64,000 nucleotides of DNA from Microbulbifer flavimaris. Its GTDB lineage: Bacteria; Pseudomonadota; Gammaproteobacteria; Pseudomonadales; Cellvibrionaceae. The position numbers and the translations under genes are program-made. The stretch spans positions 434,001-498,000 of the forward strand of contig NZ_LRFG02000001.1 in the NCBI RefSeq assembly GCF_001641755.2, read 5' to 3'. The notes below the pieces were generated by a model. It saw nothing but the letters and a program-made list of their open reading frames with translations, ran no database searches and was not told where the DNA came from. This document shows positions 17,178 through 33,641 of this stretch, one piece after another (the stretch's first letter is position 1; every line of letters begins with the position of its first letter).

Positions 17178-17239
17178 TTGGATCGTGCTGCAGCGGTTTT
17201 TTGCAGATAAGAATAAATAGCGCGACTCAGGAGAGCACA

Positions 17240-20222: not shown

Positions 20223-21078
20223 CTAGCCCTCCTTCAACTCTCGATACTCCGACAGTGCTTCGGGGTCTTCGTAAAGGAATCCACGCAGGAAACGGTCAAT
20301 AGCCTGTCCGATGTCGGGGTGCGTCCAATTGGTGTGTAAGGGTGGCTCCAAATGTCCACGCCTACAGGTTTGATCCGGTGGGGAAGATAATGAGAAGTGA
20401 TTGGCGTCTGTTAGTAGGAGGAGGGTATCGTTGTCCTTGCATTCCGGCATGGCCTTATGGAATGTCTGCTCGATAGGGCAGTTGTCGAGGTATTTGAACC
20501 GTTGCAGTTCCGCTGTGGGCGATGCAGCCGTCCTTTTCGCCTCCGATCATGAGGAGAAGGACTCCGGGGCTGATCGGCAGCAGGGTCTCTTCCGGCCAGT
20601 CCAAGGCAGTAGGGGCGCCGGTGCGGGCGCCGTAGGCAAAGACGGCGCGCAGGGCCGGGAACCAATCAGGGTTGGCGTTGAGCAGCGCCATAGTGCCGCC
20701 GGCGCTGTGGCCAGCGAAAGCCAGCCGACCCAGGTCGAGCTAGCCGGCCAATAAGCCCTCGCCATTCAGACGCTGGAGCATGGCTAAGAGTGCCGGCAAG
20801 GCGAGGACAGACAGGCGATGACTTAATTGCTCTGGTGTGAGTCGGTCCAGGTCGATACCCGATGTTGCGGCCGTGTGCCCGGTCATCTCCTCGGAAACCA
20901 GCTGGTTGGTCGCAGTAACGACACCGGTAGGAGCCACTGTTTCCGCCATCCAGCGATAGCCGCTGGGATCGACATTGATGCCATTGAAAAGGATGAGCAC
21001 CGGGTCAGCAGCAAAGGTCCCGTACAGGGGGGTTGCGTCGCTATCGTGCTCTTCAAACGCGTCCCGGTATTTAGGCGC
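20223..21078 (-). pseudogene. Alpha/beta-hydrolase (chlorophyllase/lipase-like) pseudogene
   Basis: Pieces of one alpha/beta-hydrolase can be read on this strand. First comes ATPLYGTFAADPVLILFNG, then an in-frame TAG at 20740-20742. Past it the same frame gives LDLGRLAFAGHSAGGTMALL, with the nucleophile elbow GHSAGG intact. A frameshift between about 20480 and 20525 moves to PIEQTFHKAMPECKDNDTL and DANHF, the histidine region, ending at 20223. The 5' end is lost: the frame begins after a stop at 21079-21081 with no start codon. With one nonsense codon, one frameshift and no start, this is a decayed gene. It borders the tRNA array. Confidence 0.75.
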
Positions 21079-21518
21079 TTAGTAGATTCTGGCAATGCCT
21101 CCATTTCAACCGGTTCTCAATGCAATCAATGATAAGCGCGCACGGGAGTCCAGTTTTGGGTACCTCTGTGCTGAGCGTTACTCTCTTGCTAAGAAGAATA
21201 TGCCCTGCCACCCAGGCGAATGCAGGTAGGGATCAGTATCGGGCACTGGTGTTTTCAGCCTGCCCGGGGATGAGACAGCAAAAAGGACGCCATATTGCCG
21301 GTGTGCACTATTTGTTCGTTGCTTATTCAGAAGCAGGCGCTAGAATTCCTGCATTGTCCAAGGAGAACACCGTGACCAGGTTATCAAGCTACCTCGACCG
21401 AATAGGCCATGCCGCCCCACAAGGGGCGCGGGCGTGGACTATTTGCGTCGAGAAAAAACTCTGTTAACGGCCTCCTGAATCCCGGGAGGCGCGAGCCTTC
21501 TGGAGTCGGCCCCCGTAG
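21079..21518. other. 440-base region without recognised gene
   Basis: A 115-codon open frame exists on the plus strand (21120-21467), but it has no ribosome site, no recognisable motif and a composition that looks out of frame. I see no tRNA here. The region separates the pseudogene from the terminator ahead of the tRNA array. Confidence 0.3.
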
Positions 21519-21548
21519 CCCCCGTAGGTTCGCCTTCGGGGGTTTTTT
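21519..21548 (+). terminator. Rho-independent terminator just before first array tRNA
   Basis: CCCCCG and CGGGGG form the stem and TTTTTT follows at 21543-21548. It sits seven bases before tRNA-Thr(CGT), so it ends a transcript coming from the left and insulates the array. Confidence 0.75.
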
Positions 21549-21555
21549 GTTTTCA

Positions 21556-21631
21556 GGGCTCATAGCTCATCCGGTAAGAGCTCTCGCCTCGTAAGCGAGG
21601 GGAGGGGGTTCGAGTCCCCCGGGGCCCACCA
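21556..21631 (+). tRNA. tRNA-Thr(CGT)
   Basis: A 76-base cloverleaf with anticodon loop CTCGTAA on stem CTCGC/GCGAG, anticodon CGT (codon ACG), and encoded CCA. The acceptor has one mismatch at the 7/66 position. It stands 756 bases ahead of the rest of the array. Confidence 0.85.
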
Positions 21632-22235
21632 GTTGGATGGAAAGAGCATGCTCCATATCGACGCGCGAGAAGGGGCCAAAAGAGGGATGGCAACTTGCCT
21701 GCAGCTCGGATTGACACTGTAGAAATCGAGTACCGTGTCAGCGATGTAGAGAACAGTAAGTTGCTGAACGGCAAGTTCTTTTGAGAGGGAAAATGTTGAG
21801 AAGAATTCTGAGAACGGGACAGCACTAAGCGTATGAAATCACGCTTCGACCGGCACTCATGCCCAAAATTTAATGCTGAAGTTGCGGCAGGAATTCGCTC
21901 GCTTATTTTATGCGTAACCTATTGAAAAATATGGTAAAAATGTAAATTTATGGGTTGCAAAACAACTTTTTCGTGATAGCTTTAAAAAGAACATGAGGCA
22001 TCCGATATTGCTCTGCCTCCAAAGTTTTCTGCCGCGAAGCGGCGCTCATAACTGGTGACTCAAGTGTTATCAAGACTGCAATGCCATAAGACCATGCTCG
22101 GGACGGCCCAGAATCTGGGACGGGACCAGTATGCCTGTGCATTGCCCAGCAGTTTTGTGCGTTGGCCATCAATGAATCCGTCGAAAGGTGCAGAGATTGA
22201 TTTTGGTGACCGCATGAAAGCGTAGTTCGACCTGT
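21632..22235. other. Spacer between tRNA-Thr and the main array
   Basis: About 600 bases with no convincing gene. An AT-rich stretch at 21915-21955 could hold a promoter, but the -35/-10 spacing I can find (TTGAAA, 15 bases, TAAATT) is poor. Several short frames on both strands lack ribosome sites or known motifs. Confidence 0.3.
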
Positions 22236-22317
22236 CCGGTCGGCTGCGCGCCAACCGGATTTTTGAACACGACGTGTGAAAAACCCGGTTGGCGAATCCC
22301 GCCATCCGGGTTTTTTT
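22236..22317. terminator. Double hairpin / large inverted repeat ahead of main tRNA array
   Basis: Two terminator-like hairpins lie in tandem. The first (22236-22264) has the stem CCGGT/ACCGG followed by ATTTTTG. The second (22281-22317) has the stem AACCCGG/CCGGGTT, an inner GGCG/CGCC pair, and seven T. They also contain perfect 10-base inverted arms to each other (22249-22258 with 22285-22294), so an alternative large stem can form. This could be switch-like, or simply a two-way terminator. Confidence 0.6.
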
Positions 22318-22386
22318 ATGGCGGGTAAAAGTGCGCTGGCACTGACACCCAGCACGTTTGTTTAACAATCTGGTCGCTTTTTCTGA

Positions 22387-22461
22387 TGCGGTGTAGCTCA
22401 GCGGTAGAGCAAGCCCCCGATAAGGGTCAGGTCGGCAGTTCGAATCTGTCCGCCGCAACCA
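22387..22461 (+). tRNA. tRNA-Ile(GAT)
   Basis: 75 bases, acceptor TGCGGTG/CGCCGCA, anticodon loop CCGATAA (anticodon GAT), T-loop TTCGAAT, encoded CCA. The start at T1, paired with A72, is unusual for Ile in gammaproteobacteria. Confidence 0.85.
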
Positions 22462-22470
22462 GAATACATT

Positions 22471-22547
22471 GTCCCCATCGTCTAACTGGTCGAGGACAGT
22501 TGCCTTTCAAGCAGCAGATACGGGTTCGAGTCCCGTTGGGGATACCA
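22471..22547 (+). tRNA. tRNA-Glu(TTC)
   Basis: 77 bases, acceptor GTCCCCA, anticodon loop CTTTCAA (TTC) on stem GTTGC/GCAGC, encoded CCA. It is close to ordinary bacterial tRNA-Glu. Confidence 0.9.
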
Positions 22548-22564
22548 ATTTCAGATTCCATCGT

Positions 22565-22639
22565 TGGCGTATGGTAGAGCGGTGATACACCGGCCTTTTA
22601 AGCCGGCATACGCGGGTTCGAATCCCGCTGCGCCAACCA
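22565..22639 (+). tRNA. tRNA-Lys(TTT)
   Basis: 75 bases, acceptor TGGCGTA/TGCGCCA, anticodon loop CTTTTAA on stem CCGGC/GCCGG, encoded CCA. The D-arm is reduced (GTA/TAC) and the acceptor is unlike the usual GGGTCG-type tRNA-Lys. Confidence 0.85.
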
Positions 22640-22651
22640 TGGGTTTTGATT

Positions 22652-22727
22652 GGGTCAGTAACTCAACTGGCAGAGTGCCGGTCTCCAAAACCGGTCGTTG
22701 CAGGTTCGATCCCTGCCTGGCCCGCCA
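22652..22727 (+). tRNA. tRNA-Trp(CCA)
   Basis: 76 bases, acceptor GGGTCAG/CTGGCCC, anticodon loop CTCCAAA (CCA) on stem CCGGT/ACCGG, discriminator G, encoded CCA. Confidence 0.9.
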
Positions 22728-22733
22728 ATCCTT

Positions 22734-22808
22734 TGCGGAGTAGAGCAGTGGTAGCTCGGCGCCCTCATGAGGCGTAGGTCCCCAGTTCGAGCCTGGGCTC
22801 CGCAATCA
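22734..22808 (+). tRNA. tRNA-Met(CAT), 3' end TCA instead of CCA
   Basis: 75 bases, acceptor TGCGGAG/CTCCGCA, anticodon loop CTCATGA (CAT). The 3' end reads ATCA, so CCA is not correctly encoded and would need CCA-adding repair. The D-arm resembles phage initiator-like tRNAs. However, T1-A72 pairs and there are no three G-C pairs in the anticodon stem, so initiator function is doubtful. Confidence 0.8.
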
Positions 22809-22811
22809 TTC

Positions 22812-22885
22812 TGCATTGTTAGCTCAGTGGGTAGAGTACCTGGTTGAAGCCCAGGGCGCGCAAGTTCGACTCTTGCACGATGCAC
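22812..22885 (+). tRNA. tRNA-Phe(GAA), no encoded CCA
   Basis: 74 bases to the discriminator, acceptor TGCATTG/CGATGCA, anticodon loop TTGAAGC (GAA) on stem CCTGG/CCAGG. The bases after the discriminator are CGG, so no CCA is encoded. Positions 37 and 38 (G, C) are atypical for tRNA-Phe. Confidence 0.78.
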
Positions 22886-22892
22886 CGGTCAT

Positions 22893-22968
22893 TGGCGAGT
22901 AGCAAAGTGGTAATGCACCCGGCTGTTAACCGGGAGACTCGCGGGTTCGACCCCCGCCTCGCCAGCCA
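22893..22968 (+). tRNA. tRNA-Asn(GTT)
   Basis: 76 bases, acceptor TGGCGAG/CTCGCCA, discriminator G, anticodon loop CTGTTAA (GTT) on stem CCCGG/CCGGG, encoded CCA. Confidence 0.9.
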
Positions 22969-23000
22969 AACAGAGGGCCGCGTCTCTTCAACGCGGATCA

Positions 23001-23098
23001 GGCGATCAGGATTACCTGTTCACCTGGTGGCAGCGTGCCAGGCAGGTCCCGATCTGGGTACGGAATCAGTGCCCTGACGGTTTCACGCTGTGATCGCC
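23001..23098 (+). ncRNA. Candidate structured RNA in tRNA array
   Basis: GGCGATCA (23001-23008) and TGATCGCC (23091-23098) form a perfect 8-bp closing helix around about 82 bases. Inside lies a strong hairpin, TGGCA-GCG-TGCCA, extended by CCTG/CAGG. The size and 8-bp closing stem recall an oversized tRNA. However, there is no normal anticodon arm or TTCRA loop, so I only call it a structured element. It is located between tRNA-Asn and tRNA-His. Confidence 0.35.
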
Positions 23099-23103
23099 CT
23101 GAT

Positions 23104-23179
23104 GGCGGCCGTGGCAGAGCGGCTATGCGCGAGGATGTGGCCCTCGTACACACCGGTTCGAATCCGGTCGGTCGCCCCA
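23104..23179 (+). tRNA. tRNA-His(GTG)
   Basis: 76 bases including the extra 5' G(-1), which can pair with discriminator C73, the identity element of bacterial tRNA-His. Acceptor GCGGCCG/CGGTCGC, anticodon loop ATGTGGC (GTG) on stem CGAGG/CCTCG, encoded CCA. Confidence 0.9.
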
Positions 23180-23188
23180 AAGTTGAAT

Positions 23189-23267
23189 GCACCCGTGGCC
23201 AAACTGGATTGAAGGCATCGGCCTACGAAGCCGGGGATTGCAGGTTCGAATCCTGCCGGGTGCGCCA
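23189..23267 (+). tRNA. tRNA-Arg(ACG)
   Basis: 79 bases, acceptor GCACCCG/CGGGTGC, discriminator G, anticodon loop CTACGAA (ACG), T-loop TTCGAAT, encoded CCA. It has the same anticodon as the separate tRNA-Arg at 33565-33641 but a different body. Confidence 0.9.
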
Positions 23268-23454
23268 GTCAAGCAGCGGTCAAATCCTTCTCCCGAATCG
23301 TTGCATGGGGGGCTGCCACAGGGTAGTCATGTTCACCGCGTTGGTGGGGCGGTGAAAGGTTTCGGAGGGTCGACCCGAGTGCGCAGAGGCCCTGGCCCGC
23401 AATGCTGACACGAAGATTTCTCGCGCTCGAATCCTCTGTCCGGGACCAATCGAT

Positions 23455-23543
23455 GGAGACATGGCAGAGTGGTTGATTGCGCCGGACTGCTAATCCGGGG
23501 GCCCCCGGGGGCCGCGGAGGTTCGAATCCTCCTGTCTCCGCCA
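23455..23543 (+). tRNA. tRNA-Ser(GCT)
   Basis: 89 bases with a long GC-rich variable arm, acceptor GGAGACA/TGTCTCC, discriminator G, anticodon loop CTGCTAA (GCT), encoded CCA. A normal class II tRNA. Confidence 0.92.
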
Positions 23544-23613
23544 AAGATGAGTTCCGGTGTGGCCGGGCTCAGTGACTCTCCTGCCAGATGATTGGGAAGG
23601 AGAAATTTTTTCA

Positions 23614-23700
23614 GGAAGGTTGGCAGAGTGGCAATGCTCCGGTCTCGAAAGCCGGTGGCCCGTTAACGGGACGCAGGTTCGATTCCTGTACCTTCCGCCA
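23614..23700 (+). tRNA. tRNA-Ser(CGA)
   Basis: 87 bases with a long variable arm containing CCCGTTAACGGG, acceptor GGAAGGT/ACCTTCC, anticodon loop CTCGAAA (CGA), discriminator G, encoded CCA. Confidence 0.92.
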
Positions 23701-23714
23701 GACACGTTCATCAT

Positions 23715-23791
23715 GCGCCGGTGGTGGATGGGTAGACGCGGCAGGTTTAAACCCTGCTTTATTGCGGGTTCGAAGCCCGCCCGGCGCACCA
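23715..23791 (+). tRNA. tRNA-Leu(TAA) with short variable loop
   Basis: 77 bases, acceptor GCGCCGG/CCGGCGC, discriminator A, anticodon loop TTTAAAC (TAA) on stem GCAGG/CCTGC, encoded CCA. The D-arm is of Leu type (GGTAGACGC). The variable region is only six bases, while bacterial tRNA-Leu normally has a long arm. Confidence 0.85.
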
Positions 23792-23797
23792 GTTATT

Positions 23798-23874
23798 GCC
23801 CCGTTGGTGGAATAGGCAGACACGCCTGGTTTAGGCCCAGGTCATTGGGGGTTCGACTCCCTCACGGGGTACCA
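23798..23874 (+). tRNA. tRNA-Leu(TAG) with short variable loop
   Basis: 77 bases, acceptor GCCCCGT/ACGGGGT (G1-T72 wobble), anticodon loop TTTAGGC (TAG) on stem CCTGG/CCAGG, discriminator A, encoded CCA. The variable region is five bases, again lacking the class II arm. Confidence 0.85.
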
Positions 23875-23883
23875 GACAGAAGA

Positions 23884-23961
23884 GTCAGGCTGGCGAAATT
23901 GGTAGACGCGCGTGCTTCAAACGTAGATCCATTCCCGGTTCAAGTCCGGTGCCGGGCACCA
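23884..23961 (+). tRNA. tRNA-Leu(CAA) with short variable loop, degenerate
   Basis: 78 bases, acceptor GTCAGGC/GCCGGGC with one mismatch, Leu-type D-arm, encoded CCA. Aligned to its two neighbours the anticodon loop is TTCAAAC, giving CAA; the anticodon stem then has two mismatches. A one-base shifted reading would give anticodon TCA, but that breaks the alignment with the other Leu genes. The variable region is short. Confidence 0.65.
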
Positions 23962-24016
23962 GCTGTTTGATCCTGTCCGTAAGTGAAATCTTTTTTACAA
24001 CCAATAGGGGGTCTCT

Positions 24017-24148
24017 GTGATAAAAGCGCAGAAGAATCGCAATTTTGTGGCCAAATACGCACGGCAGTTCAACCGCGCATCTGTCCACCGCAACCGAAAA
24101 GCCGATCTCAAGGCAGGTCGTAATCAGAAACACAAAGGGCGCTATTGA
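24017..24148 (+). CDS. Small basic protein inside the tRNA array
   Basis: A 43-residue, strongly basic protein (Lys/Arg/His/Asn-rich; it begins IKAQKNRNFVAKYARQFN and ends QKHKGRY). The GTG start at 24017 has a strong ribosome site, AGGGGG, five bases upstream. It fills the gap between tRNA-Leu(CAA) and tRNA-Gln. The pattern NFVAK...FN...H...K...KHKG reminds me of tiny uncharacterised proteins seen in phages and tRNA arrays; this is from memory and not checked. The charge suggests RNA or ribosome binding. There is no catalytic motif, and no function is assigned. Confidence 0.6.
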   Translation: MIKAQKNRNFVAKYARQFNRASVHRNRKADLKAGRNQKHKGRY

Positions 24149-24193
24149 CCGGCACCCTTATCAGGTACGGAGCAATCGCTGCACGGTAACAAT

Positions 24194-24269
24194 TGGCCGT
24201 TGTGAGTAATTGGCAACTCGCAAGATTCTGAGTCTTGAGTTCCCGGTTCGAATCCGGGACGGCCTGCCA
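24194..24269 (+). tRNA. tRNA-Gln(CTG)
   Basis: 76 bases, acceptor TGGCCGT/ACGGCCT with a T1-T72 mismatch, discriminator G, anticodon loop TTCTGAG (CTG) on stem CAAGA/TCTTG, T-loop TTCGAAT, encoded CCA. Confidence 0.85.
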
Positions 24270-24718
24270 TCTTTGCCGGCTTGCCGGCAGCAGTTTTGGT
24301 GCCGGAAAACCGGTACCGGGGGTCCGCCCCCGATAACCTAGTGTGAGCTGGGGAAAGCGGTGCCTACCTTGCGGGGCCGCGCCGGACTACCGGTCAGTGC
24401 GGAAAAGCCGAGACGCTAAGTCATTCTCCTCGGGGGTGACAGCCGTGACGATGTGTGTGTTTGAGGGGCAGGCGATGCTGGCTCCGAAGGTAACGGGTGG
24501 TGCTGACCTGCATACAACCAGAACATTGAGCGGTGGCGACAAAGGGTAGGGATGTCAGTTTGAGGCGGCAGCCGAGGGCGCATTCCAGAGACAACGGTTC
24601 CGAGTTGACGGGATCGGGAATTTCAGTGTGGTAGCCGGCAGGTGAAACACAGGCGGAGCGTAGCATTTCGCGGTTCAAAAGACCGTGAAACTACCGGGCA
24701 CGCGCTTCGTGGCAGGGT
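24270..24718. other. 450-base spacer in tRNA array
   Basis: No tRNA or recognised protein was found. GC-rich short palindromes (GCCGGC, CCGGAAAACCGG) occur at the left end. A 24-codon frame (24475-24549) with GAGGGG upstream is possible but unsupported. The bases at 24671-24690 form a CGGT/ACCG hairpin that resembles a tRNA arm but has no partner arms. Confidence 0.3.
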
Positions 24719-24789
24719 AAGCATTTAGCTCAGATGGTAGAGCGTTGATCCTATAGTCAATGGCGCTGGTTCGATTCCGGCAATGTTTC
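24719..24789 (+). tRNA. Degenerate tRNA, isotype unresolved (Ile-TAT-like)
   Basis: Acceptor AAGCATT/AATGTTT, D-arm GCTC/GAGC and T-arm GCTGG-TTCGATT-CCGGC all fold. The anticodon stem TTGAT/GTCAA leaves a 6-base loop CCTATA, or an 8-base loop if the T-G pair opens; no 7-base loop is possible. There is no T33 and no encoded CCA. TAT (Ile) is the nearest reading, and CTA (amber) is contained in the 8-base loop. It is probably a decayed or unusual tRNA. Confidence 0.55.
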
Positions 24790-25008
24790 TAAAAATGCAA
24801 AGACGTGTCCAGGTCTTGTCGAAAATGGCTTAATGCCGCGGTCCGCAGGGATAACGCGGCCAGGGGGAGAGCCGCAAGCTCGACCCTTGTTGAATCAGAA
24901 ACGCACGGTGGTGTTAGCACACCTTGATTGCCCGCAAGGCAGACGGTAGTGGAAGATTCGAGTAGGCAGGATTGATACGGGATTCGCCACCCGTCAAAAA
25001 AGGCAGCC
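24790..25008. other. Spacer in tRNA array without recognised gene
   Basis: Contains a GCCGCG/CGCGGC dyad with a 14-base loop and a T-arm-like hairpin (GCAAG-CTCGACC-CTTGT), but no complete cloverleaf. It could be a tRNA relic. Confidence 0.25.
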
Positions 25009-25116
25009 ATGCAACCTACTGTCTTGCGCCCATTGGCGGATGCAGTGGATACGGGATTAACGGCAGCCCGCAAGCATGCCGGTAAGGTCCTCAAAGGGTT
25101 GTGTCAGTGGCTATAG
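25009..25116 (+). CDS. Possible 35-residue peptide in tRNA array
   Basis: An ATG frame with AAAGGCAG just upstream. The product would be basic and partly amphipathic (it starts MQPTVLRPLADAV and ends GKVLKGLCQWL). It ends 17 bases before tRNA-Cys. No family is recognised and the frame could be chance, but it fits an otherwise empty gap. Confidence 0.3.
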   Translation: MQPTVLRPLADAVDTGLTAARKHAGKVLKGLCQWL

Positions 25117-25133
25117 TCTCAGGCCACCATATT

Positions 25134-25208
25134 GTCCCGTTGGCCGAGTGCGATAGGCGGCGGTCTGCAACACCGCACAGGGCGGTTCAAATCCGCCACG
25201 GGACTCCA
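25134..25208 (+). tRNA. tRNA-Cys(GCA)
   Basis: 75 bases, acceptor GTCCCGT/ACGGGAC, discriminator T (the Cys identity base U73), anticodon loop CTGCAAC (GCA) on stem GCGGT/ACCGC, encoded CCA. Confidence 0.92.
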
Positions 25209-25298
25209 GTTTTAAAAAGATCGCAGAGTCAGCAACGTGACTGCATAGCAGGCAGTCGTTATTTGCATACAGCTGGCTCCATCAATTGCCAGTATTTT

Positions 25299-25375
25299 GC
25301 CCTGTTAGCATAGCGGTCCAATGCACTCGCCTGTCGAGCGATAGATCACTGGTTCGAATCCGGTACAGGGCGCCA
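25299..25375 (+). tRNA. tRNA-Asp(GTC)
   Basis: 77 bases, acceptor GCCCTGT/ACAGGGC, discriminator G, anticodon loop CTGTCGA (GTC), T-loop TTCGAAT, encoded CCA. Confidence 0.9.
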
Positions 25376-25381
25376 CTTCAT

Positions 25382-25459
25382 CGGCGTATAGCTCAGCCTG
25401 AGTAGAGCGCTACCTTTGGGAGGTAGATGTCGCAGGTTCGAATCCTGCTGCGCCGACCA
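25382..25459 (+). tRNA. tRNA-Pro(TGG)
   Basis: 78 bases, acceptor CGGCGTA/TGCGCCG, discriminator A, anticodon loop TTTGGGA (TGG) on stem CTACC/GGTAG, encoded CCA. Close to ordinary bacterial tRNA-Pro. Confidence 0.92.
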
Positions 25460-25511
25460 GATTGGATCAGCGTGCTGTTCCGGCAGAAGGCAAAATATCC
25501 TTCTCCAATCA
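25460..25511 (+). ncRNA. Candidate structured spacer RNA
   Basis: GATTGGA at 25460-25466 pairs with TCCAATC at the end of the element, directly next to an inner hairpin GAAGG/CCTTC with an 8-base loop. The 5' side carries a further CAGC/GCTG hairpin. It follows tRNA-Pro without a gap and may be a tRNA-processing element or a relic. Confidence 0.3.
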
Positions 25512-25551
25512 ACCGCCCTCCGGGTCGATCCCCGTTCCCCACGTGAAATAT

Positions 25552-25625
25552 GCGGCCATGGCTGAGTGGCGAGGTGCCGGCCTTCCAAGCCCAGGACGCG
25601 GGTTCGAATCCCGCTGGCCGCTCCA
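25552..25625 (+). tRNA. tRNA-Gly(TCC)
   Basis: 74 bases, acceptor GCGGCCA/TGGCCGC, discriminator T, anticodon loop CTTCCAA (TCC), encoded CCA. The two outer pairs of the anticodon stem are mismatched. Confidence 0.85.
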
Positions 25626-25702
25626 ACTTGTAGACCGACTATCGATTCATTGCGGTGGTCGCAGATGCCCCAGTGTTGGCAATGACACAGGACACATATT
25701 TC

Positions 25703-25780
25703 GCCCGCGTAGCTCAGTTGGTCAGAGCGCCTGCCTTGTAAGCAGGAAGTCGAAGGTTCAAATCCGTTCCGTGGGCACCA
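25703..25780 (+). tRNA. tRNA-Thr(TGT)
   Basis: 78 bases, acceptor GCCCGCG/CGTGGGC, discriminator A, anticodon loop CTTGTAA (TGT) on stem CCTGC/GCAGG, encoded CCA. The 3' strand of the T-stem carries one extra base (a bulged G). Confidence 0.87.
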
Positions 25781-25793
25781 ATTCCACAAACAT

Positions 25794-25871
25794 GATCCCG
25801 TAGCTCAACTGGAACAGAGCTCAGGCCTCCGAAGCCTGTGGTTGCCGGTTCGAGTCCGGCCGGGATCGCCA
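25794..25871 (+). tRNA. tRNA-Arg(CCG)
   Basis: 78 bases, acceptor GATCCCG/CGGGATC, discriminator G, anticodon loop CTCCGAA (CCG) on stem CAGGC/GCCTG, encoded CCA. Confidence 0.9.
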
Positions 25872-25890
25872 ACCATCGCGAGGAGACAAT

Positions 25891-26181
25891 ATGCGACTCA
25901 TCATTGGGGCTCGCGATCATGGCGCGGGCCTGGCCACAACAAACTATGTCAGCGCCAAGCGCATCATGCGCGAATTCCCAGTTTCCATCCTACAGGTCGT
26001 GCAACCGCTACCGAGTCGGGAAAACCTGATCGGTTTTCTGTCCTGGTGCAATGGTCGGCACTGTCTACCGCTGCGGGTAGTGCTGAATCAGGTGTCCCCT
26101 GAGGATCGCCGCCTGGCTATGCAGTACCTCATTGCCCGGGGATACCGTACTGCAGATCGTGTGACATTCATGAAGCTCTAA
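25891..26181 (+). CDS. Hypothetical protein between array tRNAs
   Basis: A 96-residue protein (it begins MRLIIGARDHGAGLATTNY). The ATG has a good ribosome site (GAGGAG, about seven bases upstream), and the frame exactly fills the gap between tRNA-Arg(CCG) and tRNA-Arg(TCT), ending one base before the latter. It has no signal peptide or clear membrane segment. I recognise no domain. The tight fit and ribosome site argue for a real gene that travels with the array. Confidence 0.6.
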   Translation: MRLIIGARDHGAGLATTNYVSAKRIMREFPVSILQVVQPLPSRENLIGFLSWCNGRHCLPLRVVLNQVSPEDRRLAMQYLIARGYRTADRVTFMKL

Positions 26182-26182
26182 G

Positions 26183-26258
26183 GCGCCCGTAGCTCAATTG
26201 GCAGAGCAGGACCCTTCTAAGGTCTCGGTTGGGGGTTCGAATCCCTCCGGGCGTGCCA
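26183..26258 (+). tRNA. tRNA-Arg(TCT)
   Basis: 76 bases, acceptor GCGCCCG/CGGGCGT (G1-T72 wobble), discriminator G, anticodon loop CTTCTAA (TCT) on stem GGACC/GGTCT, encoded CCA. Last tRNA of the array. Confidence 0.9.
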
Positions 26259-26294
26259 GAAAAAGCGACCAGTTTTTACTCTAAGGAAAGAACA

Positions 26295-26852
26295 ATGGCT
26301 CGAGTACTGTATCTAGATGCTGGTGGTAGACCTATTCGTTGGATAAATCTCCAGCGCGCTGCCTATCTCTACGCAAAAGATCAGGTTTTGTGGGATCTGG
26401 GCACATTCAAGATAACGCTGCGCGGCGGTTACAGAAGGTGCGGTGTTCGCTCGATGCTTTCGATTGCGCCGGTGATCGCTGGACGCAGTATCAACCGCGT
26501 GGGTTCAAAGCTTCGCCCTGCTCTTACGAACCAGAGCCTTTTCGCCCGTGACCAGTTCACGTGCCTCTACTGTGGTGTGACCTTTTCCTTCTCTCAGCTG
26601 ACGAGGGATCATGTAATGCCGGTTTCCCGTGGCGGCGCTGATAGTTGGGAGAATGTAGTGGCCGCCTGCAAGGGCTGCAACAACCGAAAGGGTGCGATGA
26701 CACCGGATGAGGCGGGTATGCCGCTGCTGGCGGTGCCGTTCACGCCCAATCCCTACGAGGCGATCATGCTGCAGGCGCATCAGATACTGGCGGATCAGAT
26801 GGAGTATCTGAGTTCCGGATTTAGCGACAGGCGCAACTGGAAATCGGCATAA
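26295..26852 (+). CDS. HNH endonuclease
   Basis: A 185-residue protein with a C-terminal HNH nuclease domain from about residue 88. It has CLYCG, then the TRDHVMPVSRGG segment (the catalytic DH), then WENVVAACKGCNNRKG (the second CxxC and the conserved NN-K). The four cysteines bind a structural zinc and the histidines bind the catalytic metal. The N-terminal half is of the kind found in stand-alone McrA-like HNH proteins. The ATG at 26295 follows AAGGAAAG. It begins 36 bases after the last tRNA, so it may be cotranscribed. HNH enzymes usually nick or cut DNA; a homing or mobility role is likely, but an RNA target cannot be excluded. Confidence 0.88.
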   Translation: MARVLYLDAGGRPIRWINLQRAAYLYAKDQVLWDLGTFKITLRGGYRRCGVRSMLSIAPVIAGRSINRVGSKLRPALTNQSLFARDQFTCLYCGVTFSFSQLTRDHVMPVSRGGADSWENVVAACKGCNNRKGAMTPDEAGMPLLAVPFTPNPYEAIMLQAHQILADQMEYLSSGFSDRRNWKSA

Positions 26853-26929
26853 GTGGTTGCGGGGAATAGTGAAACTTGAGTGATTAATGGTTGTACGCCA
26901 AGCAGGCATGTGACCAAAGGGTGAAAGAG

Positions 26930-27463
26930 ATGTTGAGTACTAAAGTGATTATCAAATGGACCTTGTCTTTTCTGAAAGAGGACTGGGGAATCAGGGATTA
27001 TCCGGTAAGAATTCGAGAGCAGATCAGGGCCGAGCAGACTAAAGAAGGGCTTTATATGCCGCGATTTATCGCCCAGATCGAGAACTGGTGGCAAATCTCA
27101 GGTATTGGAGAAACCCGAGAAGAGGCCCTGATGGACCTTGGTAGGTCACTCGCAACCGTAAAGGAGAGACGGGGATGGCTCCCAAGGCCTGGAACGGGAC
27201 TGCCGATAGAATTTGCACCCAGTGATGAAATCGAGCGCTACTGGGGGGTTGTTAGCCGGATCATAACCGAGGTGCTGGAATATGACCCCGATGACATTTT
27301 TATCACAGATGGCTCTTCGCTCTGGGACTTCTCCTAGGAAGGAGACTCCATCGAAACTTTAAGAGAACGCGTTTCGAAGATATTCAACGTGGATATTTCT
27401 CACATCGAAAGCGGAAATATCGCAGAAATAGCTCGATTTATAGCTGAGGCAAAAGATCGTTGA
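26930..27463 (+). pseudogene. Unknown protein interrupted by in-frame TAG
   Basis: The frame from the ATG at 26930 gives 135 residues and meets TAG at 27335-27337. The same frame continues for 41 codons of good protein-like sequence to TGA at 27461. The sequence across the stop (ITDGSSLWDFS, stop, EGDSIETLRERVSKIFNVD) reads as one helical domain, so this is either a nonsense mutation or amber readthrough. The middle part (YMPRFIAQIENWWQISGIGETREEALMDL) resembles HicB-like folds, which is only a weak hint. It lies between the HNH gene and rtcB and ends 50 bases before rtcB. Confidence 0.55.
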
Positions 27464-27512
27464 AGCCGGCAGAAATAGACAACTTATCAATGAATTGATC
27501 CAGGAAAAGATC

Positions 27513-28720
27513 ATGCCAGTCAAAATGGTACTGAATGCGAAAGCATCCCCGGGCACTGTCCCGGTCAAAATTTACACGAAAGAAGTTGAACACGCTGCGC
27601 TAGAGCAGCTGAAGAATATTGCCCAGCTTCCGATTGTGCACTCCCATGTGGCGGCAATGCCGGATGTGCATCTGGGTAAAGGCGCCACGGTTGGTTCTGT
27701 CATTCCAACCGTTGGTGCAATCATTCCAGCGGCCGTTGGGGTCGATATCGGGTGCGGAATGAATGCGGTGCGGACATCACTACGTGCCAATCAGTTGCCC
27801 GATAGCCTCAAGTCAGTTCGGGCGGCCATCGAGGCCAGGGTGCCAGTGGGTTTTGCCCGGCACAAGATGGTCAATGCGAGGGAGTCAGCCTGCAAGGGCC
27901 TCGCTCCCGGAGCGGATCGATTATTCGAAAAGCACCCTGCGCTGCTAAAGATGTTGCGGGATCCCCAGCGCACCTGGGTTACCCAGGTGGGCACCCTTGG
28001 TGGAGGGAACCATTTCATCGAGATCTGTCTTGATGAGAGCGATCAGGTATGGGTCATGCTGCACTCTGGAAGTCGGGTATCGGCAATGCGATCGGGCAAC
28101 ATTTCATCAAGCTGGCCAGAAAGGATATGGCAGTACATATCCACAAGTTGCCGGACCGTGACCTGGCCTACTTCAGTGAGGGCAGTCAGCACTTCGATGA
28201 CTACGTGGAGGCAGTTAACTGGGGGCAGGAATACGCCCGCGTAAACAGACAGGAGATGATGAAACTTGTCATCAGTTGTCTGCGTGAATACTTGCCGCCG
28301 TTTACGCTGACGTCCGAAGCCATCAACTGTCACCACAACTATGTGGTGCGGGAAGCACACTTTGGTCGCGATGTGTTTGTAACCCGCAAGGGCGCCATCA
28401 GTGCACAGCGAGACCAGCTGGGCATCATCCCCGGTTCGATGGGCACCCGGTCCTATATCGTACGGGGAAAGGGGAACCCGGAGTCGTTCTGCTCCTGTGC
28501 CCATGGCGCCGGACGGAAAATGAGCCGCAATGCAGCGCGCAAGCGTTTTACCCGGCGTGATCTTGAGGAACAGACAAAGGGGGTCGATTGTCGAAAGGAC
28601 AGTGGGGTGCTCGATGAGATCCCGGCTGCCTATAAAGATATCGACCGTGCCATGGAAAATCAGTCAGACCTGGTGGACGTAGTTCACACGCTGCGACAGG
28701 TGATCTGTGTGAAGGGATGA
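27513..28720 (+). pseudogene. rtcB: RtcB-type RNA ligase, interrupted by a frameshift
   Basis: RtcB joins RNA 2',3'-cyclic-phosphate ends to 5'-OH ends with GTP and Mn2+, repairing cleaved tRNA and other RNAs. All key parts are present: PDVHLGKGATVGSV, the metal cysteine in VGVDIGCGMNAV, GGGNHFIE, and the GMP-accepting histidine in CAHGAGRKMSR. The conserved HSGSRGIGNAIG is broken near 28074-28080, where one base is missing and the reading frame changes. The halves are 27513 to about 28076 and about 28077 to 28720. With one base restored the protein would be 402 residues, the normal length. This is a recent mutation, a sequencing error or, less likely, frameshifting. The start ATG at 27513 follows AGGAAAAG. 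Confidence 0.85.
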
Positions 28721-28747
28721 GTGCCTGTTAGGGCACATAAAGCGGAT

Positions 28748-29743
28748 ATGGATATCGAGCTAGCAAAAGAGATCATGGCGTGCCTCCCCGAGGGGCGCAC
28801 CCGGTTCTATTACTTCAAGGACAGGTACGCCCTGTTGCTGCTCCGTCAGGCCTGCAAGGAACAGCAGTCTATAAGGGCGCTGAGGCAGGGGCAGTATGCC
28901 AGGTTGCTGGATAAAGCGGCTGTGGGGGAGGTCATCCGTCGCTCTGGGAACGGCAGGCTCACCCCTGAGCAGCTGGTTAATTACTGGCCCGCTCAATTTC
29001 ACTGCTACCGATTGAGTCTGGGGCTCTGGGGAAGTGATAGGAAGAGTCGTTATTACCAGACGTCGCGAACAGGCTACAACCTTGTGTTGCAGATGAACTT
29101 TTCTAATCAGCATGACCTGTGCTACCGGCGCTATAAAATTGCTGATGACGAGGGCTGCTTTGATTCCTACGAGCACCCAACAAGTGATACACGGAATACC
29201 ATGGCATGGTCGCGGATTGATCTCGACCTGGAAACTGATACCGCGCTGATTGAAGAGGTCCAGACAGACTGGTTACGGTTTGCCAGGGAAGCTTATGATG
29301 ATGCACAAAACATCCGTAAGGCAAAGTCGAAAGTAGACAGGGAAAAGCAAGAGCGCTATTGGTTTTACGATTTTACGCCTGAGCAGGCTACAGAATATTT
29401 TGAGATCGCGGTCAGGGAGCATCTTGCAATCTGGGATGAGGCTGTTCTCTCGGCCACTTTAGAGTTCCTCTTGCATGAGATCGGCATCCGGAAGGTCTAT
29501 TTTCATAGCTGGGAAACTGGCCGGAGAGTAAAGCACTGTGCGCCGCCACGGTCGGTATACAGGAATTTGCCCAGAAGGTTCTGTTTCCAGTCCGTATCTG
29601 AAGGTCCAGGGTTTCTGATTGAGGACAAGTCCTCCAGGAGGAAAATGAAGAAGATCGACCGGCAATCCTGGTATCTATTGGATTTCTCTGGGGTTAGTGG
29701 TGGGGCAGGTATCAACCGTGACTGCCAGCTACTTACCGCCTGA
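28748..29743 (+). CDS. Hypothetical protein downstream of rtcB
   Basis: A 331-residue cytoplasmic protein. A GTG at 28721, immediately after the rtcB stop and preceded by AAGGGAT, could be the true start and would add nine residues. I see no enzyme domain I can name with confidence. The segment ALIEEVQTDWLRFA, followed by LEFLLHEIGIRKVYFHSWETGRRVK, resembles the (I)EE(I/V)QSDW pattern of domains in large phage polyvalent proteins; this is from memory. The C-terminal part is basic (SSRRKMKKIDR). Its direct coupling to rtcB suggests a role in the same RNA-repair module. Confidence 0.7.
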   Translation: MDIELAKEIMACLPEGRTRFYYFKDRYALLLLRQACKEQQSIRALRQGQYARLLDKAAVGEVIRRSGNGRLTPEQLVNYWPAQFHCYRLSLGLWGSDRKSRYYQTSRTGYNLVLQMNFSNQHDLCYRRYKIADDEGCFDSYEHPTSDTRNTMAWSRIDLDLETDTALIEEVQTDWLRFAREAYDDAQNIRKAKSKVDREKQERYWFYDFTPEQATEYFEIAVREHLAIWDEAVLSATLEFLLHEIGIRKVYFHSWETGRRVKHCAPPRSVYRNLPRRFCFQSVSEGPGFLIEDKSSRRKMKKIDRQSWYLLDFSGVSGGAGINRDCQLLTA

Positions 29744-29885
29744 CAGTCGCTCTCTTGGCGGGGTTACCGGGTTATGCCCTGAGAGACCATTTTCCCAGGT
29801 ATTTTCGGCTGAGCAATTTTCAGCGTGAGAGTATAGAAACCGGATTGTGTGGATTTTAAGTCAGGGATTTGTTGGAGAGTTTCAT

Positions 29886-30500
29886 ATGGATGTGGGAAAC
29901 AACAAAAGTTCAATGCGGATGCGGGCGGACAGGATCAAGCCGTATCAGTGTAAGCAGCTGATCGCGGTCATCGAAGATCCGCACGATATCAAGAATATCG
30001 GCACGGTGATCCGTAATGTTAACGCCCTAGGGGTGGAGAAAGCGTATATCGTGGACCCGAAAAGGAGCCTTCCAGCGGACTGGCAAGCAATGCGGGAGCG
30101 CAAGTCCCTCTCAGGAACCTCAGTTTCAGCGATTAAATGGACATTCGTGAAGCGGTTTGACAGCACGGAACAATGTCTTGAGCACCTAGAGAGCAACAAC
30201 TTCAGCTCAATCGTAACCTCACCCCATATAAAGGGGAGCCGCAACGTTGTCCTCCATGAGGGTGACTACACAATATTTCCCAAGCTGGCTGTGTGGTTTG
30301 GGAGTGAGTCCCGTGGCGTCACTGACCTGGCAGTGCGGCGCAGTGAGCTCTGCGTGAATATTCCGATGCTGGGCATGATCGAAAGCTTAAACCTGGGAAC
30401 CACTTCCGGGATTGTGCTGTACGAGATTACGAAGCAAAGAAGAGCCTATCAAAGAATGTATAAGTACAAGAATAGGCGGGGAAGAAGGTTTCTAGCGTAG
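29886..30500 (+). CDS. SpoU/TrmH-family RNA 2'-O-methyltransferase
   Basis: A 204-residue SPOUT-class methyltransferase that transfers methyl from S-adenosylmethionine to a ribose 2'-OH. The three family motifs are clear: DIKNIGTVIRNVNALG (motif 1), AVWFGSESRGV (motif 2) and NIPMLGMIESLNLGTTSGI (motif 3, forming the knotted AdoMet site). Its short size and lack of an N-terminal extension fit TrmH-like enzymes that methylate G18 in the tRNA D-loop, although TrmL-type wobble-base targets are also possible. The ATG at 29886 has GGAGAG seven bases upstream. It closes the tRNA island and points to modification of the array's own tRNAs. Confidence 0.88.
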   Translation: MDVGNNKSSMRMRADRIKPYQCKQLIAVIEDPHDIKNIGTVIRNVNALGVEKAYIVDPKRSLPADWQAMRERKSLSGTSVSAIKWTFVKRFDSTEQCLEHLESNNFSSIVTSPHIKGSRNVVLHEGDYTIFPKLAVWFGSESRGVTDLAVRRSELCVNIPMLGMIESLNLGTTSGIVLYEITKQRRAYQRMYKYKNRRGRRFLA

Positions 30501-30516
30501 AGAAAATGTTCACTCC

Positions 30517-31599
30517 CTAGGGCTTGGCGCCGGGAGGTTCCGACAGGGCTTTCAGGTTTTCCAGTACTTTCTCGGCCCTGGCGATATTGGTCAGCAATTC
30601 GGCATTATCCGGATCCAGGGCTTTAGCTTCACGCCAGACTTCCACCGCTCGCTCGATTTTGCCTTCGCTGTAGAGATCATTGCCCCGCTTGATCGCGGCT
30701 TCGATTCGCGCATCCAGCTGGGATTGGAACTGTGATTGCAGGGGCGATAGCTGCGGATCTTGCGGCGACTGTTGCTGTAGCCTGTTCAGGTGTTGCCGTG
30801 CGCTGAGCAAGTCACCGGTATCCAGTGCTCGTTGTAATTCCTGGACAGGAGACTTTGGATCTTTCTTCGGGGCGCTGCTGGCCACCTGGCGCTTCGTCTT
30901 GGCAAGGTGGCGGTTGGCCACGGCCAGGTCCTGGTCGATCTGTTCGCGCTGATCAGGTTCTTGCAGCAGGTCGTTGCCATACAGGCGCCGTGCTACCCTC
31001 AGGCCGCGTGCGGCCAGGGTATAGTCCCCCCGTTGTAATGCCTCTTGCGCATGGTCCTGCAGTGCCTGTGCGGACCCACGGCATTTGCGGTGGAAGTTCT
31101 GAAGCTCCAGCCAGGTCAGCACGTCTGGGCCATTAAGCTGCCGCAGGCGCTGGTAGGCCTCCGCTTCCTTCAGCAATTGTTCGCCGCGCTGGATAGCCAG
31201 TTCCATACGCACGCGTTCTTCACGTAACTGGCGCCGCTCTGAAAACTTTTGCCGTGCAGTGTTCAGTTCCTGACTGTCTGGCAGTAGGTCTGTGCCAACC
31301 TGTAAAACCCGCTCGGCCTCGTGCCATTCGCTCTGTTTTTCCAGGCGGCTCGCGGTGCGGATTGCATCGCGTTCAAACTGCTGCAGCCTGTTCTTTAATT
31401 TCCGGATCTGTTGCTGCTGGGCCGCTGTGGCTGTGTCCAGTGCCTGCAGGCGTTCGAGTTCCTTGGACTGTTCGCGCAACTGTTGCAGCGTTTCGGACGG
31501 GAATCCCTCCAGCGCCTGCTGCTGGGTCGGCATCAGGCTGCAGGCCTGCAGCAGCGGTAATAGCAAAAAGCATAAAAGGACTAAATGGCGATTACACAT
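30517..31599 (-). CDS. TPR/coiled-coil lipoprotein
   Basis: A 360-residue protein with a lipoprotein signal peptide (LLCFLLLPLLQAC, Cys20). The mature part is rich in Gln, Arg and Glu with long coiled-coil helices. A TPR-like C-terminal region has KRGNDLYSEGKIERAVEVW. It should be anchored to a membrane and face the periplasm. Its start overlaps the end of the cyclase gene by eight bases, so the two are cotranscribed. A role in sensing or presenting envelope signals to the cyclase is a fair inference. Confidence 0.8.
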   Translation of the reverse strand: MCNRHLVLLCFLLLPLLQACSLMPTQQQALEGFPSETLQQLREQSKELERLQALDTATAAQQQQIRKLKNRLQQFERDAIRTASRLEKQSEWHEAERVLQVGTDLLPDSQELNTARQKFSERRQLREERVRMELAIQRGEQLLKEAEAYQRLRQLNGPDVLTWLELQNFHRKCRGSAQALQDHAQEALQRGDYTLAARGLRVARRLYGNDLLQEPDQREQIDQDLAVANRHLAKTKRQVASSAPKKDPKSPVQELQRALDTGDLLSARQHLNRLQQQSPQDPQLSPLQSQFQSQLDARIEAAIKRGNDLYSEGKIERAVEVWREAKALDPDNAELLTNIARAEKVLENLKALSEPPGAKP

Positions 31600-33115
31600 G
31601 GGCGACTGCCTGCCGGCGCAGTTTGCGGGGCCGGTTGTCTAGTATTCTCTGCAGGTTAGCGCGCAGCTGTGCTTGATCGTTCTGATGGAGATCCCGCACA
31701 GAGTAGATTCCCACTGGCGTTGACTTGCCGCGAATTGTCAGGGTCCGCTCGGGCTGTGCGTTGATGCGCTGCTGCAGCATGGAGAACATTTTTCTCTGGA
31801 TGATGATTTGATCCGCCTGGGCTTCGCTGCACAAACGAGATGCCAGGTTGACGGCATCGCCGACCACTGTGTATTCCATCCGCTCGTCGGAGCCCAGGTT
31901 GCCGGCCAGCATCGCGCCACAGTTGATGCCGATGCGAAAATGCACCTCGGGCCGGCCCTCGGCACGGCGCTGCTGGTTCAACTGCGTCGCCAGCTGCTGA
32001 ATCAACACTGCGCAGCTGACCGCATTGAATGCGTGGTCGGTATCGTCTTCCAGCACACCAAACGCCAGCATGGCGCAGTCGCCGATAAACTTGTCGACCA
32101 CGCCGCCGTACAAGGAGCAGGCTTGTGAAATATATGAGAAGTATTCGTTTAACAGCTCGGAAACCTGGCTCGGCTGCAGCTTCTCTGACATCGCGGTGAA
32201 GCCGGTAATATCGGCGAACAGTACTGTTGCCTCGATCGGTCGGTCGACCAACCGGACCTCGTCGAGGTTGGCCAGTACCTTGTCGGCAACGTTTTTTGAC
32301 ACATAGCGGGAGAAGACCTGCTCTACCTGCGACTTTCTCAGCAGCCCGGCCGCCATATTGTTGAACCCTTCGAAAAGGTAGCCGATTTCGTCATTGCGCT
32401 GCTGATCGATTCGGGTTGCAAAATCCCCGCGGTCGATGGCCTGGGTCGCTTTCATCAGATGGTGGATTGGCAGGGACAGGCGCCGGCTGAGCCAATAGGC
32501 CAGCAAGGACGCCAGCACAGTCATAGCCAGGGTGGCATAGACAATGGCATCGCGGGCGCTCGTTGCCGCCTGGTCCATCTGTGAAGCCGATAGGGTCACC
32601 ACCACCGATCCAACCCGGACGTCCGAGTAGGTAGCCGGGGCGATAAAACTGATCAACCGTTCCTGTGACCCTTCAGCTGTATCCCGGAACCAGGGCCGTG
32701 ATATGACCCCGGCAGCCTCGAAAGGAGAGTCGGTCAGGTCCGGCTGGATGCCGGTCGTGGACAAGGGTTCGCCGCTGCGCGCGTAGATCCCCGCACCGAG
32801 GATCTTCTCGTCCTGGCCGAGGTTGGTGGTCAGCATACGCAGGTTCAGGCTGTTCTCAGACAGGATCGGTTCACTGGCCAGTTTCGCCAGCTGCAACGCC
32901 ATGGTGTTGCCGAAATCGTGCAGTTGCGTCTTGATCAGGCGATTCTGGTTATCGCTGATAAACAGCCCAAGGCTCGTCATACCCAGCACCAGCAGCAGGG
33001 TCATGACCAGCGCCAGTTTGAACGCAATCGGGATGCGGCGGGGTAACAGGTGGATCAGGCGCACCCGTAGACCGCGAGCGGTGCGCCGCAAAGTGCCTTT
33101 GGCCTTGGTGATCAA
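31592..33115 (-). CDS. Membrane-bound class III adenylate/guanylate cyclase with HAMP domain
   Basis: A 507-residue inner-membrane protein. It has a transmembrane helix at about residues 28-52, a periplasmic sensor region, a second helix at about 188-210, a HAMP domain, and a catalytic class III cyclase domain from about 290. The metal-binding aspartates lie in VLFADITGFTAMSEK and VDKFIGDCAMLAF, and the transition-state residues in VVGDAVNLASRL. It makes cAMP or cGMP in response to an envelope signal. The start is a TTG at 33115, preceded by AAGGAGAG about ten bases away; no better ATG exists. It shares an operon with the TPR lipoprotein. Confidence 0.92.
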   Translation of the reverse strand: MITKAKGTLRRTARGLRVRLIHLLPRRIPIAFKLALVMTLLLVLGMTSLGLFISDNQNRLIKTQLHDFGNTMALQLAKLASEPILSENSLNLRMLTTNLGQDEKILGAGIYARSGEPLSTTGIQPDLTDSPFEAAGVISRPWFRDTAEGSQERLISFIAPATYSDVRVGSVVVTLSASQMDQAATSARDAIVYATLAMTVLASLLAYWLSRRLSLPIHHLMKATQAIDRGDFATRIDQQRNDEIGYLFEGFNNMAAGLLRKSQVEQVFSRYVSKNVADKVLANLDEVRLVDRPIEATVLFADITGFTAMSEKLQPSQVSELLNEYFSYISQACSLYGGVVDKFIGDCAMLAFGVLEDDTDHAFNAVSCAVLIQQLATQLNQQRRAEGRPEVHFRIGINCGAMLAGNLGSDERMEYTVVGDAVNLASRLCSEAQADQIIIQRKMFSMLQQRINAQPERTLTIRGKSTPVGIYSVRDLHQNDQAQLRANLQRILDNRPRKLRRQAVAHV

Positions 33116-33523
33116 CGGGTGGCTCTCCTTCTTATTGTCACCGGTACCCGGTTGGTGAGAGTGAGAACACTATACCAGTTCTTGGGCGGTTTTATGACCA
33201 GTGTTGACCCCTGACCGATTGGTCATGCTGGCGCAACGAGAAATGTAGTGGGCCATAAGCCGGGGGCTCGGGTCTGGAGCTCCTGCGGGGCAGGCAGAGC
33301 CACGGATCGTAGCGATTCAGGCCAATTAATGACCGCTTCCACGGTTGGGGGCATTTCTTGACCGGGTACTGATCTACAGATATCGAATTTGTTGAGTCAT
33401 GACGGAGTAGGGCGGATCGACATAATTCGCGCCAGTGTATGCGCTACTCCCAGGGATGACTCATACCATCAATGGCGTCCGAAGTAGCTGGGGGTAATTT
33501 TTCATTCACCGCCGGAGCCGCAA
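33116..33523. other. Intergenic region without recognised gene
   Basis: About 400 bases between the cyclase start and the tRNA-Arg terminator. I see no ORF, tRNA or repeat of note. It should contain the cyclase promoter. Confidence 0.4.
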
Positions 33524-33558
33524 ATTAAAAAGGCCCCGTCCTTTCGGATGGGGCCTTC
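33524..33558 (-). terminator. Terminator of tRNA-Arg
   Basis: AAGGCCCC (33530-33537) and GGGGCCTT (33550-33557) form an 8-bp stem. On the minus strand it is followed by a T run, seven bases after the tRNA 3' end. Confidence 0.85.
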
Positions 33559-33564
33559 TTGATC

Positions 33565-33641
33565 TGGCGCGCTCGGGAGGATTCGAACCTCCGACCGCCT
33601 GGTTCGTAGCCAGGTACTCTATCCAGCTGAGCTACGAGCGC
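33565..33641 (-). tRNA. tRNA-Arg(ACG)
   Basis: A standard 77-base tRNA with anticodon loop CTACGAA (ACG), acceptor GCGCTCG/CGAGCGC, T-loop TTCGAAT and encoded CCA. It is a typical chromosomal gammaproteobacterial gene, unlike the array copy at 23189-23267 that has the same anticodon. Confidence 0.95.

Follow-up and report, generated by a model that had tools for sequence, protein, structure and literature searches.

Introduction

The tRNA array units described from Mycobacterium chromosomes, plasmids, and phages are clusters of at least 20 tRNA genes that cover most amino acids, diverge from the core tRNAs, come with an HNH endonuclease gene and a structured RNA of about 430 nucleotides (nt) known as GOLLD, and spread horizontally (PMC5966550, PMC12803027). 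A "putative antidefense" role has been proposed for them (PMC12803027). In Anabaena PCC 7120, a 26-tRNA trn operon is silent until translation is inhibited, and the repressor TrcR holds down this operon together with rtcB, slipin, and HNH genes (PMC10272220). RtcB, RtcA, RlaP, and CCA-adding enzyme constitute a tRNA repair set, also treated in the context of jumbo-phage RNA repair (PMC7824862), and a unit of 26 tRNAs is known from a mobile island of Acidithiobacillus, in DNA gained by horizontal transfer (PMC5468388). Here we describe an island of Microbulbifer flavimaris in which a tRNA array and RNA repair genes lie side by side. It is part of a 64,000-nt stretch of DNA (the window; assembly GCF_001641755.2, contig NZ_LRFG02000001.1, positions 434,001 to 498,000), and all coordinates below count from the first letter of the window.

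Arrays with HNH and GOLLD are thus already described as tRNA array units. RtcB, the unnamed protein family X2, Band_7, SpoU, and an rRNA-type leader, all present here, go unmentioned in the accessible portions of the Mycobacterium reports. The RtcB/RtcA/RlaP neighborhoods match the repair gene set of one of our loci (L011), but X2 and a linked array of 8 to 20 tRNAs with HNH and GOLLD are not mentioned in the accessible part of that paper (PMC7824862), and the available Acidithiobacillus text never mentions RtcB or SpoU (PMC5468388). The Anabaena genes supply the same functions, namely, a tRNA operon, rtcB, slipin (Band_7), and HNH (PMC10272220); there, as far as the accessible text goes, they are scattered and united by one repressor, whereas in the window and its relatives they stand side by side. 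By analogy, the trn operon with the TrcR regulon is the closest known case to a stand-by tRNA operon. In the open-licence literature, we found no description of this combination or of an rRNA-type array leader; the repair linkage may partly be in print. A first-pass annotation of this DNA had known of no described system of exactly this composition. What is new here is the linkage of X2 with rtcB, in 45 of 80 loci, and with arrays, in 6 of 80, as well as the boxA motif and terminal clamp of 7 and 5 of 18 arrays, respectively.

We read the island as a stand-by tRNA operon, or translation kit, coupled to tRNA repair, and we put the probability of this reading at roughly one half. A stand-by tRNA set with repair enzymes is favored because relatives of the island hold the functions of the Anabaena TrcR regulon in cis. 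More tentatively, and with somewhat less confidence, we propose an rRNA-type operon design for some tRNA arrays (boxA, an array-enclosing stem, and one protected precursor). Such arrays would form the RNA half of a portable translation rescue kit; its protein half would be RtcB and the GNAT-like X2, often joined by Band_7 as a membrane scaffold, with RtcA, RlaP, and CCA-adding enzyme added in the fuller versions. Physically tying tRNA arrays to RNA ligases, to enzymes of 3'-end repair, and to an rRNA-like leader would replace guesses about what arrays do with testable steps: the timing of the transcript, its processing route, and which breaks RtcB and X2 repair. It would also tie bacterial arrays to an experimentally studied stress operon, that of Anabaena, and it makes X2 a family ready for a name, for which a structural model and a partner gene are available.

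The tRNA array and its GOLLD RNA

The island core (21109..30486, plus strand) is defined by 93% DNA identity with the sister genome G035 over a 9,397-column alignment. Within it, ARAGORN, a check proposed by the first-pass annotation, confirmed the array with 23 plus-strand calls from 21556 to 26258. A lone leading tRNA, Thr(cgt), at 21556..21631 is followed by a dense main block at 22387..26258 in the order Ile, Glu, Lys, Trp, Met, Phe, Asn, His, Arg, Ser, Ser, Leu, Leu, Gln, a tRNA-like element, Cys, Asp, Pro, Gly, Thr, Arg, and Arg. Twenty-two calls are ordinary tRNAs; the remaining one, at 24719..24789, has no assigned anticodon and no CCA end. About 24 tRNA genes for 17 amino acids had been announced for this island. 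The 17 amino acids (Ala, Val, and Tyr are absent) and the single strand stand, and the count becomes 22 ordinary tRNAs plus the tRNA-like element. A 24th tRNA of the window, Arg(acg) at 33565..33641 on the minus strand, does not belong to the island; the genome contains a second, identical copy of it.

The tRNA-like element lies inside a GOLLD RNA (RF02032; 24653..25125, plus strand; 185.2 bits against a gathering score of 150), which had been overlooked in the first pass. With this RNA, an HNH gene, and its tRNA content, the island has the size, amino acid coverage, and companions of a tRNA array unit. None of 100 control windows (19.9 kb each, from related genomes, at fixed coordinates, with 2,400 N in total) had eight or more tRNAs; the maximum was 7. 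GOLLD is patchy in its distribution: 2 of 58 relatives have it, and a search of 369 genomes of the class under stricter filters detected it in one, that of the window. Among seven loci searched, only L014 (see below) carries it (154.8 bits). GOLLD may serve to store or shield tRNAs.

The array tRNAs differ from those of the host, being 63 to 82% identical to the core tRNAs with the same anticodon (18 array tRNAs). In these 18 comparisons, identity is 91% in the loops, 46% in the anticodon stems, and 57 to 60% in the acceptor arms. U33 is present in 21 of the 22 array tRNAs and a purine at position 37 in all of them, and the CCA end is encoded in 20. These features fit tRNAs that, judged by their sequences, would still be able to decode while presenting an altered body to charging enzymes and nucleases. 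The nearest tRNAs of the G035 array are 94 to 100% identical for 22 of the 23 calls, the exception being Gly(tcc) at 84%. The leading tRNA has an apparent anticodon change, Thr(cgt) in the window and Met(cat) in G035 (locus L093), in genes that are 99% identical. As a separate observation, tRNA-Leu genes in arrays are sometimes 72 to 79 nt long and lack the usual long variable arm. Both of those in the window (23715..23874) are 77 nt, and short forms also occur in L093, L159, L014, L039, L011, L053, L058, and L173, versus 82 to 88 nt in the plasmid arrays L152 to L154.

An rRNA-like leader and a putative terminal clamp

The boxA element of rRNA operons serves to recruit Nus factors, and RNase III cleaves at the terminal stems. 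The window has a boxA core, TTTAACAA, at 22361..22368 (plus strand); this rRNA-type antitermination motif precedes the main tRNA block by 26 nt. It is followed at 22370..22385 by the left arm of a 16-nt perfect inverted repeat, the right arm of which, at 26257..26272, starts within the CCA end of the final tRNA (both on the plus strand); the repeat is the same in G035. We looked for both elements in 18 readable arrays, a set that leaves out L225, which begins inside its array; for the window, L093, and L159, the tests start from the second tRNA, that is, from the main block rather than the lone first gene.

A TTTRACAA core within 250 nt upstream was present in 7 of the 18 arrays (the window, L093, L014, L039, L011, L058, and L152), against a background of 85 in 20,000 random 250-nt windows and none at 40 ordinary tRNAs in control windows. 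The longer boxA form GCTCTTTAACA, as in the Escherichia coli rrnH leader, occurs in L014, L039, L058, and L152 and not in the window; in L014 and L039, the motif reads TGCTCTTTAACAATTT, with letters identical to those of the rrnH leader. A one-letter variant is found in the congener G428. The standard of this comparison is E. coli rrnH rather than the host's own rRNA leader, and a 16S search of G035 for the host rRNA boxA found nothing. L219, a candidate rRNA spacer, was rejected when it turned out to be a tRNA-Val/Asp region.

A perfect inverted repeat of 14 to 19 nt clamps 5 of the 18 arrays (the window, L093, L159, L014, and L039), the first arm lying immediately behind boxA or close to it and the second just past the last tRNA and before HNH. 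A 16-nt repeat alone is not rare in 14.5 kb, as 2 of 50 shuffles gave at least 16 nt; the position at both array ends is rare and arose in 0 of 100 shuffles of each array. Each of the two lineages has its own arm sequences. By analogy with an rRNA operon, the transcript of the array would undergo antitermination and be clamped. The arms could also be terminal repeats of a mobile unit, with a role at the DNA level.

Recurrence of arrays beside X2 and HNH genes

Of 136 confirmed X2 loci, the best 80 were surveyed; alignment A1 comprises 28 of 120 listed sequences (271 found). A gene for RtcB is close to X2 in 45 of the 80. Arrays of 8 to 20 tRNAs accompany X2 in six, always upstream on the same strand and 0.7 to 4.9 kb away: L011 (a Spongiibacteraceae metagenome-assembled genome [MAG]), L014 and L039 (gammaproteobacterial MAGs), L053 and L057 (Cerasicoccus), and L058 (a Woeseiaceae MAG). 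Compared with the 100 control windows, this is an enrichment (Fisher P = 0.007); a smaller control of 40 windows, also without arrays, gave a nonsignificant P of 0.18 and was then enlarged to 100. A Band_7 profile detected a Band_7/SPFH gene in all six loci, versus 6 of the other 74 (Fisher P = 3e-6), Pfam also finds Band_7 in all six, and all six have an HNH-type gene (four by profile, L053 by Pfam, and L057 by 93% identity to that of L053). The Band_7 profile was built from five of the six array loci and the HNH profile also from such loci, which favors them within the set. Three of the six, L011, L014, and L039, have rtcB near X2. The counts are not of independent loci, as L053/L057 and L014/L039 are related pairs and the window, L093, and L159 are a related trio.

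L011, with 8 tRNAs, additionally encodes another RtcB, RtcA, an enzyme of the CCA-adding type, and two RlaP proteins. In the congener G006 (L095), X2 occurs with two rtcB matches, RlaP, Band_7, HNH, RtcA, a poly(A)-polymerase/CCA-type enzyme, and four tRNAs. Searching from the HNH side gave 20 regions, hence 17 new places (L158 is on the same contig as L011, L171 apparently on that of L051, and L160 continues the place of L159). Thirteen of these have HNH alone, L159 adds an array, L173 has an array with repair genes, and in L166 and L175 there are repair genes but no detected tRNAs. The co-location of array and RNA repair genes described in the first pass recurs in distant genomes, while each partner also occurs alone. 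Because the parts also occur apart, we regard the unit as modular, with the array and HNH as its core and the repair genes as recurrent options.

In four Hyphomicrobiales loci (L017, L020, L045, and L054), X2 adjoins an RsmB/F-type rRNA methylase gene; L017 and L020 add an IMP dehydrogenase gene and L020 also a GMP synthase gene, hinting at an RNA-related role of X2 that is independent of arrays.

Protein genes downstream of the array

As the first-pass annotation had listed them, the genes after the array are, in order and on the same strand, HNH, X1, RtcB, X2, and a SpoU/TrmH-type protein. The HNH endonuclease (HNH_5/HNH; 26295..26852) belongs to a family also found in other tRNA arrays. A PADLOC run on proteins of the island and its relatives returned only generic HNH matches, the best being PtuB at 26 bits, and no match for the other seven proteins (X1, the C-terminal half of RtcB, X2, and SpoU and, from relatives, Band_7, RtcB, and RlaP); on this result, membership in a defense system was rejected.

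X1 (26930..27337) is a rare protein with 13 relatives found, 12 of which make up alignment A2 with the window copy. It has an in-frame stop at 27335 to 27337, beyond which the open frame continues to 27463, and so ends short of its relatives, mostly 169 to 180 amino acids long. Its structure model is weak (predicted local distance difference test score, 76; predicted template modeling score, 0.54). A suppressor tRNA for X1 stops was rejected, since there is no CUA anticodon among the array calls.

The rtcB gene (27513..28720) encodes the RNA ligase family expected (PF01139) but not as an intact gene: PF01139 positions 1 to 190 and 191 to 426 fall in two frames, separated by a one-nucleotide deletion relative to the open G035 copy. 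We read the frameshift as damage or a sequencing error. Programmed frameshifting was rejected because the G035 copy is one open frame and inspection revealed no slippery run. The genome has a second, distant and intact rtcB at C1:54295-55590, whose protein is 28 to 33% identical to the island RtcB.

X2 (28748..29743), linked to rtcB in many genomes, has a predicted GNAT-like fold, a likeness that leans on match ranking in a Foldseek comparison made without its PDB library. It had no match in phage or plasmid collections or in viral contigs (the last by a one-sequence query), and the reading of X2 as a viral or plasmid protein was rejected. The last gene, at 29886..30500, encodes a 2'-O-methyltransferase of the SpoU superfamily (PF00588, 87.9 bits against a cutoff of 29.7). 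TrmH proper is its best NCBIfam match, at 73.3 bits and thus below the cutoff of 227. The enzyme could methylate new array tRNAs. Because it was found only in the island of the window and in G035, SpoU is not a general part of the unit, which speaks against the place that the first-pass annotation had given it.

Divergence from the sister genome

Blocks flanking the island are 84.5 to 88% identical to G035, and the island is 93% identical. Synonymous divergence (dS) is 0.14 to 0.44 in the five island protein genes versus 0.95 in a flanking acetolactate synthase-like (ALS) gene at 33955, and the lower values fit horizontal movement. Together with the presence of GOLLD in so few relatives, this lends some support to the mobile module supposed in the first pass. 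The ratio of nonsynonymous to synonymous divergence (dN/dS) is 0.07 to 0.13 for all five genes, a sign at the sequence level of purifying selection. The best-conserved parts of the island are GOLLD (98.5% identical) and the tRNAs; the first stretch of the main array block is 96.7% identical, and intergenic pieces range from 70% to 96%.

Weighing the explanations

For a stand-by tRNA operon coupled to repair, we infer the following course of expression, antitermination, processing, and repair. A repressible promoter would yield a single long noncoding array transcript, which a boxA/Nus complex would shield from Rho, as in an rRNA operon. The terminal stem would fold the precursor for processing into a divergent, decoding-competent tRNA set. 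RtcB and X2 (elsewhere with Band_7, RtcA, RlaP, and CCA-adding enzyme) would mend tRNAs cleaved under stress or by anticodon nucleases, resealing or rebuilding them, new array tRNAs would meanwhile replenish the pool, and the HNH gene would be a mobile companion that spreads the array. Attack by phage nucleases and translation inhibitors are both possible triggers.

Several observations weigh against this reading. The first-pass annotation had itself named protein genes without the array, or the reverse, as evidence against a common module, and some such cases exist. The congeners G034, G022, and G012 have rtcB-X2 without an array, so the association is not obligate; the congener G428 has 13 tRNAs and HNH with no rtcB, X1, X2, or SpoU match within 26 kb. 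In a profile search that covered the plasmid and phage arrays L152, L153, L154, and L156 and not L223 to L225, those four had HNH only, with no rtcB, Band_7, or X2 match. Many arrays are without repair genes, and most occurrences of the repair pair lack an array (rtcB at 42 of the 74 nonarray X2 loci). Eleven of the 18 readable arrays are without the boxA core and 13 without the clamp. In the window itself, rtcB is frameshifted, and X1 has a stop in both sister genomes. Finally, anticodon loop mutations have been proposed to let mycobacteriophage tRNAs evade nucleases (PMC10264068, in its accessible part). The array tRNAs, with loops close to those of the core, bear no signature of such evasion, and we rejected it.

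The same loops bear on an alternative in which the array is counterdefense cargo of a phage or plasmid, replacing tRNAs destroyed by host anticodon nucleases in the manner of phage tRNAs, and the island is a stranded remnant. Members of the array HNH family occur in 90 plasmid and 323 phage records, and arrays of 11 to 39 tRNAs adjoin HNH in seven of the eight such records with HNH that were examined; from the available texts, jumbo phages combine tRNAs with RNA ligases (PMC7824862), and retron-Eco7 is countered by a T5 tRNA-Tyr (PMC11555353). A broken rtcB and X1 would suit a remnant. However, X2 is without a match in the phage, plasmid, and viral contig searches described above, the anticodon loops are conserved, unlike those of the mycobacteriophage case, and the low dN/dS shows lasting selection in two chromosomes. 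We consider this explanation unlikely, although it is the strongest of the alternatives.

Less probable still is selfish spread, in which a homing-type HNH nuclease and a tRNA cluster travel together, tRNA genes being safe recombinogenic sites, with the repair genes as chance passengers. It would account for HNH as the commonest array companion, both in the accessible part of PMC5966550 and in the arrays examined here, and for the separate occurrence of the rtcB-X2 pair and the array. Chance passengers do not sit well with Band_7 at every array-bearing X2 locus, with the excess of arrays at X2 loci over control windows, or with constraint on the tRNAs, GOLLD, and leader. A supplement for decoding foreign or rare codons seems very improbable: 18 of the 22 array tRNAs duplicate core anticodons, and RtcB, GOLLD, and SpoU would be left unexplained. 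In its favor, Thr(cgt), Ile(gat), Ser(cga), and Gln(ctg) are missing from the recovered core set, of which Ile(gat) is probably an assembly gap, the tRNAs of the rRNA operons not having been recovered.

Other features of the window

In G035, the ALS gene directly follows the island; in the window, 30605..33683 (two genes and the tRNA-Arg) lies between them, and this block sits about 92 kb from the island in G035. The island-side blocks 20254..21100 and 30605..33683 are ordered differently around tRNA-Arg in G035, which indicates a rearrangement. Attachment sites at tRNA-Arg were rejected, as the repeat search gave only tRNA-derived matches to it. The window also contains three TonB receptor-like genes, at 2419..4872, 17201..19546, and 61475..63520, which are distant paralogues with 27 to 30% identity to the gene at 17201.

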